Notes under the pieces: generated by a model
What the model was told of the DNA's origin: nothing
Databases searched by the model: none
What the model saw: only the letters and a program-made list of their open reading frames with translations
Shown: positions 12,949-22,262 of the stretch, piece after piece
Layout of the letters: each line of letters starts with the position of its first letter
How positions within the stretch are numbered: position 1 is the stretch's first letter
Assembly (NCBI GenBank): GCA_030603385.1
Contig: JAUVXW010000006.1
Location: 1 to 64,000 of the forward strand
Direction: 5' to 3'
DNA length: 64,000 nucleotides
DNA from: Promethearchaeota archaeon
GTDB lineage: Archaea > Asgardarchaeota > Lokiarchaeia > Sigyniarchaeales > SOKP01
Program-made: the position numbers and the translations under genes

Positions 12949-13254
12949 ATGAGTCTTGATGAGCTGATTAGTATTGAACATGTAGAGTTTGAAAGGTCGA
13001 GAATTCAAGAAACTTATTCAGTAAATAACCTTCTCCTATCAAGGTTGTTTGAAGAATTGATAACAGAAGTAAAAAAAGACATTTTGCCTGTTTTAGATAT
13101 GTATATCTTGCTACAAACATTACAATCTGTTCCGTTTACTGATGAGGTAAAAGGTATTGAGATTATTGAAATCCTTAGTAAATGGATGAGTGAGGAGCTT
13201 TACGGAAAAGAAGTAAAATGCTCTGAAATTGCAAAAAAGCGAGGAAAAAAATGA
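12949..13254 (+). CDS. Hypothetical protein, possibly the N-terminal part of the following ORF
   Basis: Open frame; overlaps 13229..16090 by 26 bp in another frame. Confidence 0.5.
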   Translation: MSLDELISIEHVEFERSRIQETYSVNNLLLSRLFEELITEVKKDILPVLDMYILLQTLQSVPFTDEVKGIEIIEILSKWMSEELYGKEVKCSEIAKKRGKK

Positions 13255-16090
13255 GTCTAAACTAGAAAAATCATCTGAATCTCAAAACACTAGTAAAAAA
13301 GAATTAAATAAAATAGAAATTACTGCTTCAAAATCACAAAAACAAAGTAAATCAAGTGAAGATTCGGATAAACAGAGCAAGAGTGAAATAGTCTCAAAGA
13401 ATAGACTAGAATTGAGAGAAAAATATAGACAAGAAACAGGGAAGAGACCAATTTACAATAAAAAGGAAACTAAAGGATTTCTTTCTTGGTTAGAAAAAAG
13501 AAAAAAAATAGTTATAAAAAAGATACAAGTAAAAAAGGAAGAAAAAATTGGAGAAGCAAAAGAACAGTGGCAAATTCTTCTAGAAAAATGGATATGGGAA
13601 GCTAATGAATCTAAAATCTCAAAAGAGATCAAAGAAGAGCTTATAGATATTATTAGGAAATATCGAAGGTTTAGAGAAATATATCTAAAGTTGATTAAAT
13701 TACTCGAAAGAAGGAATCTAACTGAGGAAGAAAATGAAGTTATTGAAAAATTGTTTAAAAAACTTGAACAAATAAATCAAATTCAAGCAAATATATTTAC
13801 AAATCTCAGAGCCTTTCACTCGATATATAATCAATATCATATATGGGACATGAATCGAATTCTAAAAGAGCGTGAAAAATTCATAAACTACCTTATACAG
13901 AAGTTACAGAATCTAAAAATTAATGAAAGAACTCCGCAAGGTGTTGAAAAAAGTTGGAAGGAGGTTTTAAAAGAAAATTTACATAGAATAACAACCTTAA
14001 GCTTCAAGCAAAAATCACAAATAGTTAAGATCATCCAAAAAAATAAAACAAATGAAGAAGACAAGTCGGAGCTTGTCTCGATATTAAAAAAACTTCCAAT
14101 AGAAGATTTGATTTCTTTATTAGGAAAAGATTTTGAAAAACACTCAAAAAATTATATAAGATGGGGTTGGGACTTTTATGAATATATCAAGAAAGACATG
14201 CTAATTTCCTACATAAACAAAAATGAATCTAATTATTTTTTAGGAAAGAATATCTCTGTTGAAACAGCCAATAAAATCATTAGGAAATGTCTTGAATTTG
14301 ACATAGAAATAAAAAACTTATTTGATTATAAAGGAAGAACTTCTAAACTAAAGCTAGTATGTAAAAAATGTGGTCATGGAAGTGAAGAAGGAAAAGAATG
14401 GTATAAAACAGGAAATAACATTCTCAAAGTAACTTGGAAAGGATGTCCAAAATGTCAAAGTAGAAATAGACTTATTAAATACTTCAACCTTTTGAAGACT
14501 AGAGCAAGCCAAAAAGGACTTGAAGTTATTTCTGATTTTAATGATTATCAAAATAGTCGATCAAAAATCAAATTATCTTGTCTTAATCCTGATTGTTTAT
14601 TTGGTCAAAATGGTGATTGGTCCAGAGTTGCTAGCTCCATAATGGAATCAAGTTTTCACGGGTGTCCTAAATGCTATAAACCTCAAATAGGTACTTTAAA
14701 AAGCAAGCAGTATTACTATAAGGAATTGAAGACCTTAGCTACATTAAAAGGCGGAAAAATTATAAATGAGAGATATACGAATAGTAGAAAAAAATATGAA
14801 TTTGAATGTAAGAATGGTCATACTTTTAAAAGATATCCTTATGAGATAAAAAAAGGTTATTGGTGTAAACAATGCTTTAAGAATAAGAAATTAAAAGAAA
14901 TGCAAAAAATTGCTAGAAAAAAAAATGGAAAGTTAATATCAACTGAATATGTTAATGCTCTTACTCCCTTAATTTGGGAGTGTAATAAATGCTTTTTAGA
15001 AGGAAGACCTTTTAGATGGTCAGCGCGACCTGCTGATATTAAAAAAGGTAATTGGTGTCCGAAATGCGCAGGTAAATTTAAATATTCTATTGAAGATATG
15101 AAGAAATTTGCTACTTCGAAAAAAGGCTATTGTCTCTCAAGTGAATATAAAAATATGAAATCTCCTTTATGGTGGAAGTGTGGTGAATGTGGAAATGAAT
15201 GGTTATCTACTCCTACAAGTGTTATTCATCAAGGAACTTGGTGTCCAAGATGTGGGCGTTTAGGCATCAGTGAAAGAGTTTGTCGAAAATTTTTTGAAAT
15301 ACTTTTTAATAAGGAATTTCCGACCACCACTAGTTTAAAATGGTTAGTGAATGAAAATGGTTATAAAATGCATTTAGATGGCTACGATGATGAATTAAGA
15401 ATAGCCTTTGAATATAATGGGATTCAACATTACATATACAATAAACATTTTTATAAAACAAAAGAAGAATTTGAACAAAGAATAAGGGATGATAGACGGA
15501 AAAAAGAATTATGTAATCAAAACAACATTGTATTAATTATTATTCCGTATTATGTATCTTTTGATGAAATGGAAGATTTCATAAGGAAAGAATGTAAAAT
15601 AAGAGGAATTCATATTCCTGAAACAGAGGATAAAATTGATTGGAATGATTTTAATATAGCTACTCCTAATAAATTAACTGAAATGCAAAATGCTGCAAAG
15701 GTGGTAGGAATTAAGAGATATGGATATCCTGGTAAATGTTTATCAAATAATTATTTAGGGAGATTTACACCTTTAAGATGGGAATGTGGGAATCCCTCTT
15801 GTAGACATCAATGGTGGGAGACTCCAAATAATGTCATTAATCATCAAAGATGGTGTCCACGCTGTGCAGGAAAAAGATATACTATTAAAGATATGCATAT
15901 ATTGGCATCAGAAAAATTAAATGGAGGAAAATGTTTATCTGAAAAATATAAAGGTGCAAAGGTTCATTTGGCATGGGAGTGTGGTATATGTGGGAATATA
16001 TGGTCTGCAAGTCCAGATAATATACGTAGAGGTAAAGGATGTCCTAAGTGGAGAGAACATAAATCTAAAAAAAAGTTAAAAAGAATATAA
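13229..16090 (+). CDS. Multi-zinc-ribbon (treble-clef repeat) protein with embedded Vsr/PD-(D/E)xK-like nuclease domain
   Basis: About seven modules of CxxC...W...(G/W)CPxC; HLDGYDDELRIAFEYNGIQHYIYNKHF...RDDRRKKELCNQNNIVLIIIPY. Confidence 0.8.
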   Translation: MQKSEEKNESKLEKSSESQNTSKKELNKIEITASKSQKQSKSSEDSDKQSKSEIVSKNRLELREKYRQETGKRPIYNKKETKGFLSWLEKRKKIVIKKIQVKKEEKIGEAKEQWQILLEKWIWEANESKISKEIKEELIDIIRKYRRFREIYLKLIKLLERRNLTEEENEVIEKLFKKLEQINQIQANIFTNLRAFHSIYNQYHIWDMNRILKEREKFINYLIQKLQNLKINERTPQGVEKSWKEVLKENLHRITTLSFKQKSQIVKIIQKNKTNEEDKSELVSILKKLPIEDLISLLGKDFEKHSKNYIRWGWDFYEYIKKDMLISYINKNESNYFLGKNISVETANKIIRKCLEFDIEIKNLFDYKGRTSKLKLVCKKCGHGSEEGKEWYKTGNNILKVTWKGCPKCQSRNRLIKYFNLLKTRASQKGLEVISDFNDYQNSRSKIKLSCLNPDCLFGQNGDWSRVASSIMESSFHGCPKCYKPQIGTLKSKQYYYKELKTLATLKGGKIINERYTNSRKKYEFECKNGHTFKRYPYEIKKGYWCKQCFKNKKLKEMQKIARKKNGKLISTEYVNALTPLIWECNKCFLEGRPFRWSARPADIKKGNWCPKCAGKFKYSIEDMKKFATSKKGYCLSSEYKNMKSPLWWKCGECGNEWLSTPTSVIHQGTWCPRCGRLGISERVCRKFFEILFNKEFPTTTSLKWLVNENGYKMHLDGYDDELRIAFEYNGIQHYIYNKHFYKTKEEFEQRIRDDRRKKELCNQNNIVLIIIPYYVSFDEMEDFIRKECKIRGIHIPETEDKIDWNDFNIATPNKLTEMQNAAKVVGIKRYGYPGKCLSNNYLGRFTPLRWECGNPSCRHQWWETPNNVINHQRWCPRCAGKRYTIKDMHILASEKLNGGKCLSEKYKGAKVHLAWECGICGNIWSASPDNIRRGKGCPKWREHKSKKKLKRI

Positions 16091-16112: not shown

Positions 16113-16996
16113 TTATGTTGGGAACTTTAGTTTATCCAAGGCAATCTCAAAGTCTTTCTCTTTTTTTATTAAAACTCCAAGAAATGGAATATTTGTGCGT
16201 AACTCCTCAATAGTAATTCCACTTTTCAATAACACACCAATCCAATCAAGGAGTTCAGAAGTAGAAGGTAATTTTCTCATTTTCGTTATAGCCCTTAATG
16301 CATAGAAATGGTTAAGACATTGTTCCAATAAATTCACTTTTAAATTCGGATAATGAAGGTTACAGATATCTGCCATAAATTCTCTAGAAGGAAACTCAAT
16401 CCAATGGAATACGCATCTTCTTAAAAAGGCGTCAGGAAGTTCTTTTTCATTATTAGAAGTAATGATGACTATTGGTCTGGTTTTGGTCCTAACAAATTCT
16501 TTTGTTTCTTTGATATAAAACTCCATAACATCCAATTCTTGGAGCAAATCATTCGGAAATTCTATTTACAGTAATGCTAATTATTATTTAGCATTATATC
16601 TGCTTTATCGATCTCATCGATAAGAAGAACGACCTGCTCATCAGAATCAAAAGCTTCTCCTAATGGACCAAAAGTAATATAATCATTAATATTATCAACA
16701 TCGCGATCCTCACAGCCAAATCTACTATCATTCAATCTTTGAACGGTGTCGTACATGTAGCATCCGTCGATGCCTTCAGTTGTACTCTTAATATTCCAAA
16801 TTATCAATCTTTTGCCTAAGTTTAACGATATCGCATGGGCTAGCATAGTTTTTCCTGTTCCAGGCTCTCCTTTCACTAATAAAGGGCGTCCTAAAGCAAT
16901 AGACACATTAACAATATTTCTAAGCTGTGGGTCTGCTAAATACTTAACAGTTTCTGTTTTTACGTCTCCTTTAAATTTATTAAAAGTAGCATCCAT
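16113..16996 (-). pseudogene. MoxR-family AAA+ ATPase, interrupted by a 32-bp hairpin insertion (track ORFs 16577..16996 and 16113..16547)
   Basis: LLVKGEPGTGKTMLAHAI, LLIDEIDKADI | EFPNDLLQELDVMEFYI; removing 16563-16594 restores one continuous frame. Confidence 0.8.
16572..16596. repeat. Perfect 9-bp inverted repeat with 7-nt loop (taatgctaa-ttattat-ttagcatta)
   Basis: Direct read, inside the MoxR interruption. Confidence 0.85.
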
Positions 16997-18811: not shown

Positions 18812-19921
18812 TTGAATATGCCCAATATCACATCTCTAATCGCTCGAAGAATTAAACCTATTTGTGCAGTATGGGAAATTACGTTAAGATGTAATGGCAA
18901 TTGTATTCATTGCGGCTCAAAAGCTGGAAAGAGTCGCCTTAACGAGTTGAATACTCATGAAGCTTTGACGTTGGTAAAAGAATTATATGATTGCGGTTAT
19001 AAAGGAGTTGCATTAATGGGTGGAGAACCATTAATTAGAGAAGATTGGTATGATATTGCTAAAGAAATAAAAAAATATAATATGGATTTATCAATTGTAA
19101 CAAACGGATTAAACTTAATTCAACATATTCAAAATCTAAAAAAGTTAGATGCAGATTGTGTAAGTTTAAGTTTAGATGGAGGTACTCCAAAAACACATGA
19201 TTACATTCGGGGAGTTCAAGGATCATTTGAAAAAACACTAGAAGCTATTGGTAAGTTAAAGGATTTAAAAATACCTATAAGTGTTATCACGAGTGTTAAT
19301 AAAATTAATTTTAAGGAATTGAACTTAATAAAAAATTTACTTTTAGATAGAAATATTGCTTGGCAAATTCAAATTTGTATCCCAATTGGACGTTTTCCTA
19401 AAGAATTAGTTATAACAAGGGAGGAATTTTACACCATAGCATTATTTATAGCGATTAATCAAAAAAAATATTCGTATAGAAGATTACCATTAATAGGAGC
19501 CCATTGTTTTGGACATTTCTCAAGATTTATACCAAATTTGGGATTAACTCCGTGGGTTGGATGTCAGGCAGGATTATCCGTTTTGGGGATTCAAAGTAAT
19601 GGAAATATTAAAGGATGTTTAACACTTCCAGATGAGTTTATTCAAGGAAACGTAAGAACTCAGAGTTTAAAAGAAATTTTAACTCGGTTAAGATCTAATA
19701 AGAGAAAGTTAAATCGATTGTGTGTAAATTGTGATTTAGTAAATTCATGTATGGGAGGTTGTTTGGGAACAGCTTATGCACTAAACTGTTTTGAAGATCC
19801 TTATTGTTTAAGATCAATCGAAAAAAAATTATTTAATTTAGAAGAATTGCCTATTAGGGGAAAATTAGATTCAACATTCTCAAAATTCAAAAATTTATAT
19901 TACAATTCAATATTCAAATAA
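18812..19921 (+). CDS. Radical SAM/SPASM-type protein, candidate peptide maturase (ATG at 18818 is the more likely start)
   Basis: WEITLRCNGNCIHCGSKAGKSR, ALMGGEPL; C-terminal GCLTLPDE...CVNCDLVNSCMGGCLGTAYALNCFEDPYC. Confidence 0.88.
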   Translation: MNMPNITSLIARRIKPICAVWEITLRCNGNCIHCGSKAGKSRLNELNTHEALTLVKELYDCGYKGVALMGGEPLIREDWYDIAKEIKKYNMDLSIVTNGLNLIQHIQNLKKLDADCVSLSLDGGTPKTHDYIRGVQGSFEKTLEAIGKLKDLKIPISVITSVNKINFKELNLIKNLLLDRNIAWQIQICIPIGRFPKELVITREEFYTIALFIAINQKKYSYRRLPLIGAHCFGHFSRFIPNLGLTPWVGCQAGLSVLGIQSNGNIKGCLTLPDEFIQGNVRTQSLKEILTRLRSNKRKLNRLCVNCDLVNSCMGGCLGTAYALNCFEDPYCLRSIEKKLFNLEELPIRGKLDSTFSKFKNLYYNSIFK

Positions 19922-19955
19922 TTTATATTTTAAGAAAAATGGTGAAATTACTACA

Positions 19956-20204
19956 ATGTTTAAAGATTTTTTTCAATTATATCAAATTGGTAAGGAATTA
20001 GGATTAAATAAGAAAGAAATAAAGAATATATTCTTATTTGACAATTCAAGGCATTATATATTATACACGATCTTATTGATTGTATCCATTGTTGCATTTG
20101 GGATTTTAATGATTATTTTAGGTATACAAGCCTTTAGAAATACATATCCCTCAGGAACATTGTATTCAACAGTAAAGAAAAAGGATTTTAACCGAAGAAA
20201 GTGA
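19956..20204 (+). CDS. Small single-TM peptide, copy 1 (candidate RiPP precursor)
   Basis: MFKDFFQLYQIGKELGLNKKEI...TM...NTYPSGTLYSTVKKKDF. Confidence 0.72.
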   Translation: MFKDFFQLYQIGKELGLNKKEIKNIFLFDNSRHYILYTILLIVSIVAFGILMIILGIQAFRNTYPSGTLYSTVKKKDFNRRK

Positions 20205-20304
20205 ATTTAATAAATGTAATTTAGAAAATATATAATTTTAAATTATCGTTAGTAAAAGAACTCTAAATAGAGGCGTTTTTATAATATTAAGATTAGGAGG
20301 GGAA

Positions 20305-20586
20305 ATGTTTAAAGGAATTATTCAATTGTACCAAGTAGGTAAAGAATTAGGCTTAACAAGAAAAGAAATTAATGGATTATTTTTCTTTAGAAAAGAGGCT
20401 CATAGTTTAAGATATAAAATCATATTCTATATTATTTTGATAATTACTATGTCCTTAATTGGATTAACATTAGTATTAATAAGAATTAGCATTACTAGAG
20501 ATACTTATCCTAGCGGAACAAAATATTCTACCATTAGGATAAAGGATTTTAAGAAGAAATTAAAGATTTTTATTCAAATAAAATAA
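20305..20586 (+). CDS. Small single-TM peptide, copy 2 (divergent)
   Basis: MFKGIIQLYQVGKELGLTRKEI...TM...DTYPSGTKYSTIRIKDF. Confidence 0.72.
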   Translation: MFKGIIQLYQVGKELGLTRKEINGLFFFRKEAHSLRYKIIFYIILIITMSLIGLTLVLIRISITRDTYPSGTKYSTIRIKDFKKKLKIFIQIK

Positions 20587-20616
20587 AATTTTAAAAAATG
20601 AGGTGAAATTACTACA

Positions 20617-20871
20617 ATGTTTAAAGGATTTTTTCAATTACATCAAATTGGTAAGGAATTAGGATTAAATAAGAAAGAAATAAAAAAGATATTCTTATTT
20701 GACAATTCAAAGCATTATATATTATATACAATCTTATTGATTGTATCTATTGTTGCATTTGGGATTTTAATGATTATTTTAGGTATACAAGCCTATAAAA
20801 ATACATATCCCTCAGGATCATATTACTCAACAGTAAAGAAAAAGGATTTCAAACGAAGAAGGCGAATTTAA
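20617..20871 (+). CDS. Small single-TM peptide, copy 3 (near-identical to copy 1)
   Basis: MFKGFFQLHQIGKELGLNKKEI...TM...NTYPSGSYYSTVKKKDF. Confidence 0.72.
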   Translation: MFKGFFQLHQIGKELGLNKKEIKKIFLFDNSKHYILYTILLIVSIVAFGILMIILGIQAYKNTYPSGSYYSTVKKKDFKRRRRI

Positions 20872-20915
20872 TTAAGGATTTTAAGAAGAAATTTAGATGT
20901 GAATACTCTTAAAAA

Positions 20916-22262
20916 ATGAGAATAAATGTAGGTTGTGGAAAAAAATTCGAACCAGAATATTATAATATAGATTTATATGAAGATTTAATAGCAGATAAGC
21001 TAATGTCTGCTGTTAATCTTGAAATCGATGACAATATCTGTGAGGAAGTAAAAGCAATTCAAATTATTGAACATTTATCTTTTTTTGAAGCTATTTATGC
21101 TCTAAATGAATTCTTTCGTGTCTTGCAGTTGAAGGGTAAATTAATTATTGAAATCCCTGATCTGATGAAAGCATGTCAATTGTATTTAAACTCTAATGAT
21201 GAACAGAAAAAGATTGTATTAGGGTGGATTTATGGAATACCAGATAAAGGATTGCAACACAAATTCTGTTTTCCTGCTTACTTATTAACAGAAATATTAG
21301 AAAATATCGGATTTATAAATATTAAAACTACAAAATTTTCTAACTCTGAATCGATTCCAATATTGAGATTTGAATGCTATAAACCTGTAAATTGGGATGA
21401 TGCTGAAATCTTCCAGATCTTGGCAAAAATGCACAAAATACTACGATCTGAAAACTATATTGATTTTACTAATTCTCTTATGGTTAAGGAACAAGAAGAT
21501 TTATTATCTTTATATTTAGTTAGATTACTTGAATTTCGAAAAAAGAAGAAAAAAGAAATTTTTTTTGAGATGCTTATTGAATCCTTGATAAAATGGCCCC
21601 AATCTGTTAAAATATTATTAAGAGTTCTAAAAGATAAAAATTTCATTTCTCAGTTGGAGAACAAACATATTCTTAATGTAACAGATCTCTTAATTCAGTT
21701 AAATTTTCCCAATATTTTGTGCTACTCATTGAAAAATGTATTTATTTATCCCGGAACTCAGAAAATAGCATTTTCCTCAATTGAATCCTTTGCGAGGAAG
21801 ATAATAAAAAAATTGATACAAAATGATGAAGAAAAAGATAAAATAATAAGTAAATTGAAAATGTTGTCTGATAAAACTGAATATCCAGAGATAGAATTCT
21901 TTTCTCTTAAAGTTTTAGAAAAGAAGGCATTAGATTATTTTTATCTTGGAATTAAAGCTTTTTATGGAGAAAATTACAAAATCGCATATAATCGTTTTCT
22001 GAGAGCTATAAAACTTTATAGAGATGATTTCTTATATTTTTGGAATCTTGCTAAGATTTTAGTAAAGCTACATCAAAAGAATGAGGCAATTAGATATTAT
22101 AAGAGAACACTTAGGTTAGTAAAGATAACTAAAATTGGCAAAAAAAATACTATTCGAAACGAAATCATTAAAGAACTTAATTGTTTAAAGAAAGATAAAG
22201 AAGCTGCTCAAGAATTCAAACCAGTAATGTCCATCGAAAATCTATTAAATAAAGTTAATTGA
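20916..22262 (+). CDS. SAM-dependent methyltransferase with C-terminal alpha-helical/TPR-like region
   Basis: INVGCGKKFEPEYYNIDLYED...IQIIEHLSFFEAIYALNEFFRVLQLKGKLIIEIPD; DYFYLGIKAFYGENYKIAYNRFLRAIKLY TPR-like. Confidence 0.8.
   Translation: MRINVGCGKKFEPEYYNIDLYEDLIADKLMSAVNLEIDDNICEEVKAIQIIEHLSFFEAIYALNEFFRVLQLKGKLIIEIPDLMKACQLYLNSNDEQKKIVLGWIYGIPDKGLQHKFCFPAYLLTEILENIGFINIKTTKFSNSESIPILRFECYKPVNWDDAEIFQILAKMHKILRSENYIDFTNSLMVKEQEDLLSLYLVRLLEFRKKKKKEIFFEMLIESLIKWPQSVKILLRVLKDKNFISQLENKHILNVTDLLIQLNFPNILCYSLKNVFIYPGTQKIAFSSIESFARKIIKKLIQNDEEKDKIISKLKMLSDKTEYPEIEFFSLKVLEKKALDYFYLGIKAFYGENYKIAYNRFLRAIKLYRDDFLYFWNLAKILVKLHQKNEAIRYYKRTLRLVKITKIGKKNTIRNEIIKELNCLKKDKEAAQEFKPVMSIENLLNKVN

Follow-up and report, generated by a model that had tools for sequence, protein, structure and literature searches.

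A five-gene cassette and its distribution

The window, a 64 kb stretch of a 3.9 Mb Lokiarchaeota metagenome-assembled genome (MAG), carries a row of five open reading frames (ORFs) on the plus strand that encode a radical S-adenosylmethionine (SAM) enzyme, three small membrane proteins and a methyltransferase (MT). The first ORF (18818..19921) is assigned as a radical SAM/SPASM maturase of 367 residues from its Pfam and NCBIfam matches, its position in a tree and its clade motifs; the ATG at 18818 is a likelier start than the TTG at 18812, which would give 369 residues, because homologues begin MPxI. The next three ORFs encode proteins with one transmembrane (TM) segment each: peptide 1 (19956..20204; 82 residues) has the C-terminal sequence NTYPSGTLYSTVKKKDF, which includes two invariant tyrosines, and peptide 2 (20305..20586; 93 residues) and peptide 3 (20617..20871; 84 residues) have the corresponding sequences DTYPSGTKYSTIRIKDF and NTYPSGSYYSTVKKKDF. 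The fifth ORF (20916..22262) encodes a 448-residue class I SAM-dependent MT with a C-terminal helical/TPR domain. The positions given for these ORFs in the original prediction are exact, as are the gaps of 34, 100, 30 and 44 bp between them. The low dN/dS of the genes (dN 0.06 and dS 0.15 between peptides 1 and 3; dN/dS of about 0.14–0.19 for enzyme and MT orthologues), together with the existence of 63 homologous peptides in the Loki family, the three from the window included, indicates that the ORFs are real genes.

The cassette recurs widely in Asgard archaea, to which eukaryotes are more closely related than to any other known prokaryotes. Relatives of the enzyme with 83 and 61% identity are found in Candidatus Lokiarchaeota MAGs. 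About 27 of the 65 genomes of the same family have clear peptides, and the enzyme is present in those same genomes; in the loci of this family that were retrieved, the enzyme, one to four peptides and the MT form one co-directional module, in which the start of the MT gene frequently overlaps the stop of the last peptide gene. Across 227 Asgard genomes, the MT profile has matches in 60 and the enzyme profile, at the strength of this family, in 61. Both are present in 57 genomes, the MT alone in three, the enzyme alone in four and neither in 163 (Fisher p of about 8e-45, uncorrected for phylogeny), and the exceptions lie mostly at contig ends. The two genes are co-directional in all 53 loci that contain both and lie 0–1.8 kb apart, with the substrate genes between or beside them; in several loci they overlap, so that no gene lies between.

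Peptides encoded regularly away from a radical SAM gene would speak against a functional link, and this is not what is seen: the enzyme is present in 41 of the 43 Asgard genomes with peptides, and in the other two (G050 and G056) the contig ends at that point, next to the MT gene. There is good support for pairing the enzyme with these putative substrates. No neighbour outside the module is common to more than nine of 32 loci, and no conserved protease or transporter was seen among module neighbours of at least 100 residues, although one could be encoded elsewhere. A viral origin was rejected since no relatives occur in viral contigs; PHROGs gave generic radical SAM matches only. At the level of sequence, the layout of the cassette, its conservation and the motifs of its putative substrates are firmly shown. 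As part of the explanation set out below, which we consider as a whole to be rather probable, the five genes form a single-operon protein-modification cassette with the small proteins as its putative substrates.

The putative substrates and their tyrosine motifs

The three small proteins of the window are paralogues, as had been proposed: peptides 2 and 3 are 46 and 88% identical to peptide 1, respectively, and there are 35 invariant columns. Each has a single strongly hydrophobic segment (family mean Kyte–Doolittle value of 2.97), consistent with the one helix predicted originally, and an N-terminal GxxLGLxxKEI helix is almost invariant across the 63 Loki-family peptides. The sequence of the TM segment drifts across these peptides, unlike that of the tail, in which two tyrosines and a phenylalanine are invariant (63/63). 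A profile built from the N-terminus alone picked 64 short Loki ORFs, all 64 of which have the C-terminal tyrosine motif; the motif is therefore not due to chance. Searches of Pfam, NCBIfam, PHROGs and the PDB gave no significant match for the window peptides. They contain no cysteine, which rules out a sactipeptide or ranthipeptide.

Across Asgard archaea the putative substrates come in three builds. The first comprises single-TM proteins that end in Y..G..Y[SGA].[IV]...[DE]F. Members of the second have 140–185 residues and about three TM segments; YP is invariant in their first loop, Y[GNS][VTI][YF] stands close to the C-terminus, and as many as seven diverged copies are found in a row (locus L158). 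The third build was found in one genome only (G146, locus L155), where three peptides of 46–65 residues without a TM segment are encoded between the enzyme and the MT. These soluble peptides have only GYP[FY] and xYGVY in common, and are minimal candidate substrates. All builds keep a C-terminal x-Tyr-[Gly/Ser/Ala/Asn], and a second tyrosine motif (TYP or YP) is usual, the two tyrosines being spaced by six to about 100 residues. The divergence of these proteins, with one, about three or no TM segments, isolates the likely recognition motif.

Some of the motif counts, namely the invariance of each of the two tyrosines in the multi-TM forms (34/34), the motifs of the L155 peptides and the tallies of the residue after the tyrosine, come from ORFs that were chosen partly by motif. 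The test was repeated on members gathered by profiles that leave the motif out, and in the multi-TM family YP was then found in 41 of 41 members and the C-terminal tyrosine motif in 40 of 41, the exception being cut by a contig end. The residue that follows the second tyrosine is small: Ser, Gly or Ala in Lokis, Gly or Ala in the other single-TM peptides and mostly Gly, Asn or Ser in the multi-TM forms. Tyr-Gly occurs in 31 of 42 other single-TM peptides and in 26 of 34 multi-TM peptides. The residue that precedes this tyrosine is very variable across the Asgard sites. The original prediction had listed the conserved Tyr, Pro, Ser and Thr residues as candidate modification sites; the Asgard-wide comparison singles out the two tyrosines, the second above all, and removes the equal standing of the other residues.

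The multi-TM proteins show a charge bias, with a positive N-terminus, a first loop with a net charge of about -0.6 and a second loop with a net charge of about +4. Because of this bias, the multi-TM form is suggested to have its N-terminus inside and both tyrosine motifs outside. In the single-TM forms the charge bias is weak.

The radical SAM enzyme and the methyltransferase

The features from which the enzyme was first recognized are present, with CNGNCIHC as the radical SAM motif and with all cysteines of the SPASM tail conserved. Pfam assigns the Radical_SAM (94.9 bits) and SPASM (28.6 bits) domains. The best NCBIfam match is TIGR04103 (nif11-class peptide maturase 3) and the second best is TIGR03913 (GDL-motif peptide maturase; 165 bits); both families are matched, with the best E-values listed, by all 28 diverse Asgard homologues. 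A tree was built from Asgard enzymes, bacterial references and other radical SAM proteins of the genome from which the window comes. The Asgard enzymes form one clade (support 98/98), which is sister to enzymes from Desulfobulbaceae and Agathobacter (97/93); next come a Nostoc TIGR04103 enzyme, two GDL enzymes and a Tropicibacter enzyme (91/95). MftC falls outside this group, as do the remaining radical SAM proteins from the window's own genome. The motifs HCGS, WQ[ILV]Q and WxGCxAG run throughout the clade and are present in 28 of 28 Asgard enzymes (HCGS, WQIQ and WVGCQAG in the window), whereas the compared radical SAM proteins from outside the clade lack them. Family scores, tree and motifs tie this archaeal enzyme to the PlpX/GDL 'splicease' group. 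A structure search with Foldseek found PqqE (rank 1), SkfB and SuiB about equally similar to the enzyme model and does not discriminate between them.

The original prediction had named a heme or cofactor enzyme as the identity that would count against it, and both the family scores and the tree point instead to the PlpX/GDL clade. Heme b synthase AhbD (136 versus a cut-off of 500 bits) and NirJ2 (121 versus 500 bits) were rejected as under their cut-offs, and mycofactocin MftC (113 versus 265 bits) was rejected as under its cut-off, outside the clade and without MftA or MftB neighbours seen. MftC and AhbD/NirJ share the radical SAM/SPASM architecture with the Asgard enzyme; the partner genes of these systems are absent. 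At locus L144 (7066-8131; genome G065) the maturase lies in two ORFs in different frames while the substrates and the MT look intact, which could reflect decay or an assembly error.

The fifth gene product does have a class I MT domain, as had been proposed, but it is not a simple MT, since about 250 residues of helices, including TPR, are added to that domain. Methyltransf_11 is matched by 19 of 25 MT homologues. The AlphaFold model has a predicted local distance difference test (pLDDT) score of 92.6, and in Foldseek ordinary class I MTs match over about 200 residues, in the N-terminal domain only. The protein is probably a tailoring enzyme. At locus L068 the intact MT gene is followed, about 4 kb downstream, by a 132-residue piece of the MT tail (15664-16059), a duplication remnant.

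The PlpX subclass comprises SPASM enzymes that act on Nif11-type precursors and excise tyramine at Xaa-Tyr-Gly (PMC11002830). The sites acted on by PlpX include MYG and LYG, in line with an XYG rule (PMC10533398), and splicease-type enzymes are reported to be spread across bacteria (PMC10373908). The PlpXY spliceotide system (TIGR04103) is the nearest named enzyme family; HCGS, WQIQ and WxGCxAG are common to both, and the Asgard enzymes likewise have x-Tyr followed by a small residue as their putative target. The Asgard system differs in its enzyme (about 33% identity), its distribution, its membrane-anchored substrates, the Tyr-Ser of the Lokis, the lack of a recognized Nif11 leader, the presence of an MT and the second tyrosine motif. 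A TIGR04103-annotated enzyme from Nostoc adjoins a Nif11 precursor that ends in ALYGLPPELF.

The GDL-motif/DUF1843 system (TIGR03913) is the second-best enzyme family and likewise has several short paralogues by the enzyme, with PYG, LYA and MYA motifs: a neighbouring peptide in Azospirillum has RPYGPAM, and those in Aureibacter have QPYGAG, VLYAAG and PMYAAS. Its DUF1843 peptides differ in being soluble and in having the tyrosine at the N-terminus. The Aureibacter locus also has a class I MT beside the enzyme, although this MT has about 187 residues and no TPR tail. DUF1843 peptides by TIGR03913 enzymes (L212, 4305-4517; L224, 2153-2866) have an N-terminal x-Tyr-[Gly/Ala] that one of five lacks. 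On these motifs, GDL/DUF1843 could likewise belong to the splicease type.

The sister enzymes from Desulfobulbaceae (L067) and Agathobacter (L211) also have neighbours with xYG or xYN; they differ in that no MT of the Asgard type was noted beside them. The Desulfobulbaceae protein encoded directly upstream of the enzyme (L067, 247-930) has an N-terminus that resembles chagasin, a protease inhibitor, and many C-terminal xY[NGS][VIF] sites, among them LYYGV, KYGIQ and repeated xYN[VF]P. Just upstream of the Agathobacter radical SAM gene is a small unannotated ORF (L211, 4707-4910) that ends in NLFGPVMYGTGVRM, with VMYGTG, and an MFS transporter gene follows the radical SAM gene. No peptide with x-Tyr followed by a small residue was found in the neighbourhood of the Tropicibacter enzyme.

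Proposed reaction and alternative explanations

Because a conserved cassette pairs a radical SAM enzyme and an MT with proteins that share tyrosine motifs, the data suggest that conserved tyrosines are remodelled by the cell after translation, in their backbone or side chain. From the comparisons above we infer a reaction, a role for the MT, a topology and a biological role. The radical SAM/SPASM enzyme would attack the invariant second tyrosine in x-Tyr-[Ser/Gly/Ala/Asn]-[Thr/Val/Ser]-hydrophobic, most likely by a PlpX-like excision of tyramine (-135.0757 Da), and methylation would follow, with the TPR-tailed MT acting on the product or on another site of the same peptide. The product would stay membrane-anchored and hold its modified tail just beyond the bilayer; a ketoamide in that position could bind nucleophilic enzymes, for instance proteases, or inhibit them.

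We regard modification at x-Tyr-[small residue], most likely as tyramine excision with methylation, as the reasonably probable reaction. It is favoured over a cross-link because the residue before the tyrosine is highly variable, the tyrosine is invariant and the following residue is small, as in the XYG of PlpX. The original prediction had placed the locus among the clusters for ribosomally synthesized and post-translationally modified peptides (RiPPs). The co-encoding of precursor-like genes with the enzyme across lineages upholds the general type, but, with no conserved protease or exporter beside the module, the evidence stops short of a strictly defined RiPP that is released; the cassette may instead modify resident membrane proteins. 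The broader proposal, that Asgard archaea carry out non-canonical protein splicing of membrane-anchored proteins with an archaeal branch of the spliceases and display MT-tuned ketoamides on the outer surface, is more tentative, and we place it at somewhat below an even chance.

Several observations weigh against tyramine excision by a PlpX-type enzyme. Simple excision does not account for the first tyrosine motif (TYP/YP), whose invariance equals that of the second. The Loki peptides, including those of the window, have Tyr-Ser in 60 of 63 cases versus the Tyr-Gly of PlpX; the window peptides have no Pfam match to a Nif11/NHLP-type leader; and no PlpY partner (a truncated RRE) was recognized, the small ORFs being unscreened with an RRE model. 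A clean XYG is missing from one DUF1843 peptide of Azospirillum. The enzyme scores 195 bits against the TIGR04103 cut-off of 725 and, being so far under it, is not an equivalog of that family. The link between TIGR04103 and PlpX itself rests partly on annotation and partly on InterPro IPR026482, which we take to be the TIGR04103/PlpX family.

The invariance of both tyrosines, in all 63 Loki peptides and in each of the 34 multi-TM forms, also fits a Tyr–Tyr or Tyr–backbone cross-link or cyclophane. Such a product would join the YP of the first motif to the Y[GSN] of the second, or close a three-residue ring Y-x-T/V, with no loss of tyramine. The charge bias of the multi-TM proteins, by which the two motifs would both face outwards, and the retention of exactly these two motifs by the soluble L155 peptides fit this explanation, and triceptide enzymes are known to join aromatic residues i to i+2 (PMC11002830). 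However, splicease-type families are the closest to the enzyme, its top NCBIfam matches include no cyclophane family, the spacing of the tyrosines is far from fixed and bacterial relatives often have one XYG only. We therefore consider a cross-link to be unlikely.

An explanation with roughly half that chance is that the peptides are membrane anchors or scaffolds that bring the enzyme and the MT to another target, for example a lipid or a different protein. Lipids can be substrates of radical SAM enzymes in archaea, most of the peptides sit in the membrane and have a conserved helix at the N-terminus, and the TPR region of the MT could dock to them. Against this, conservation peaks in the exposed tail and not in the TM segment, the soluble peptides of one genome have the same two motifs without a TM segment or N-terminal helix, and up to seven diverged paralogues per locus suit substrates better; the lipid enzyme GDGT-MAS is no close relative (rank 20 in the structure search). 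Least probable of all is the maturation of the tail into a redox or quinone-like cofactor, possibly kept in the membrane, by the logic of pyrroloquinoline quinone (PQQ) or mycofactocin: the SPASM enzymes PqqE, the top Foldseek match, and MftC do act on tyrosine, but MftC falls under its cut-off and outside the clade, as noted above, and the larger neighbours include no conserved dehydrogenase and no conserved partner resembling PqqD or MftB.

Compared with systems of the PlpX/GDL type, the novelty lies in the occurrence in Asgard archaea, the anchoring of the substrates in the membrane, the dedicated TPR-tailed MT and the paired tyrosine motifs. The literature that was searched holds no archaeal splicease and no link of Asgard archaea to these enzymes, and an earlier mention of archaeal members or of DUF1843 is possible. 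If tyramine excision is correct, splicease-type enzymes would extend from bacteria to archaea, and the cassette would be a concrete case of dedicated post-translational tyrosine chemistry on membrane proteins in the archaea closest to eukaryotes.

Two further features lie upstream of the cassette in the window. A gene for a MoxR-like AAA ATPase on the minus strand (16113-16996) is divided into two ORFs of 144 and 139 residues, whereas its relative at L068 (6866-7723) is a single ORF of 286 residues. Positions 13229-16090 encode a 953-residue protein in which zinc-ribbon-like CxxC repeats are numerous and one region resembles an endonuclease.

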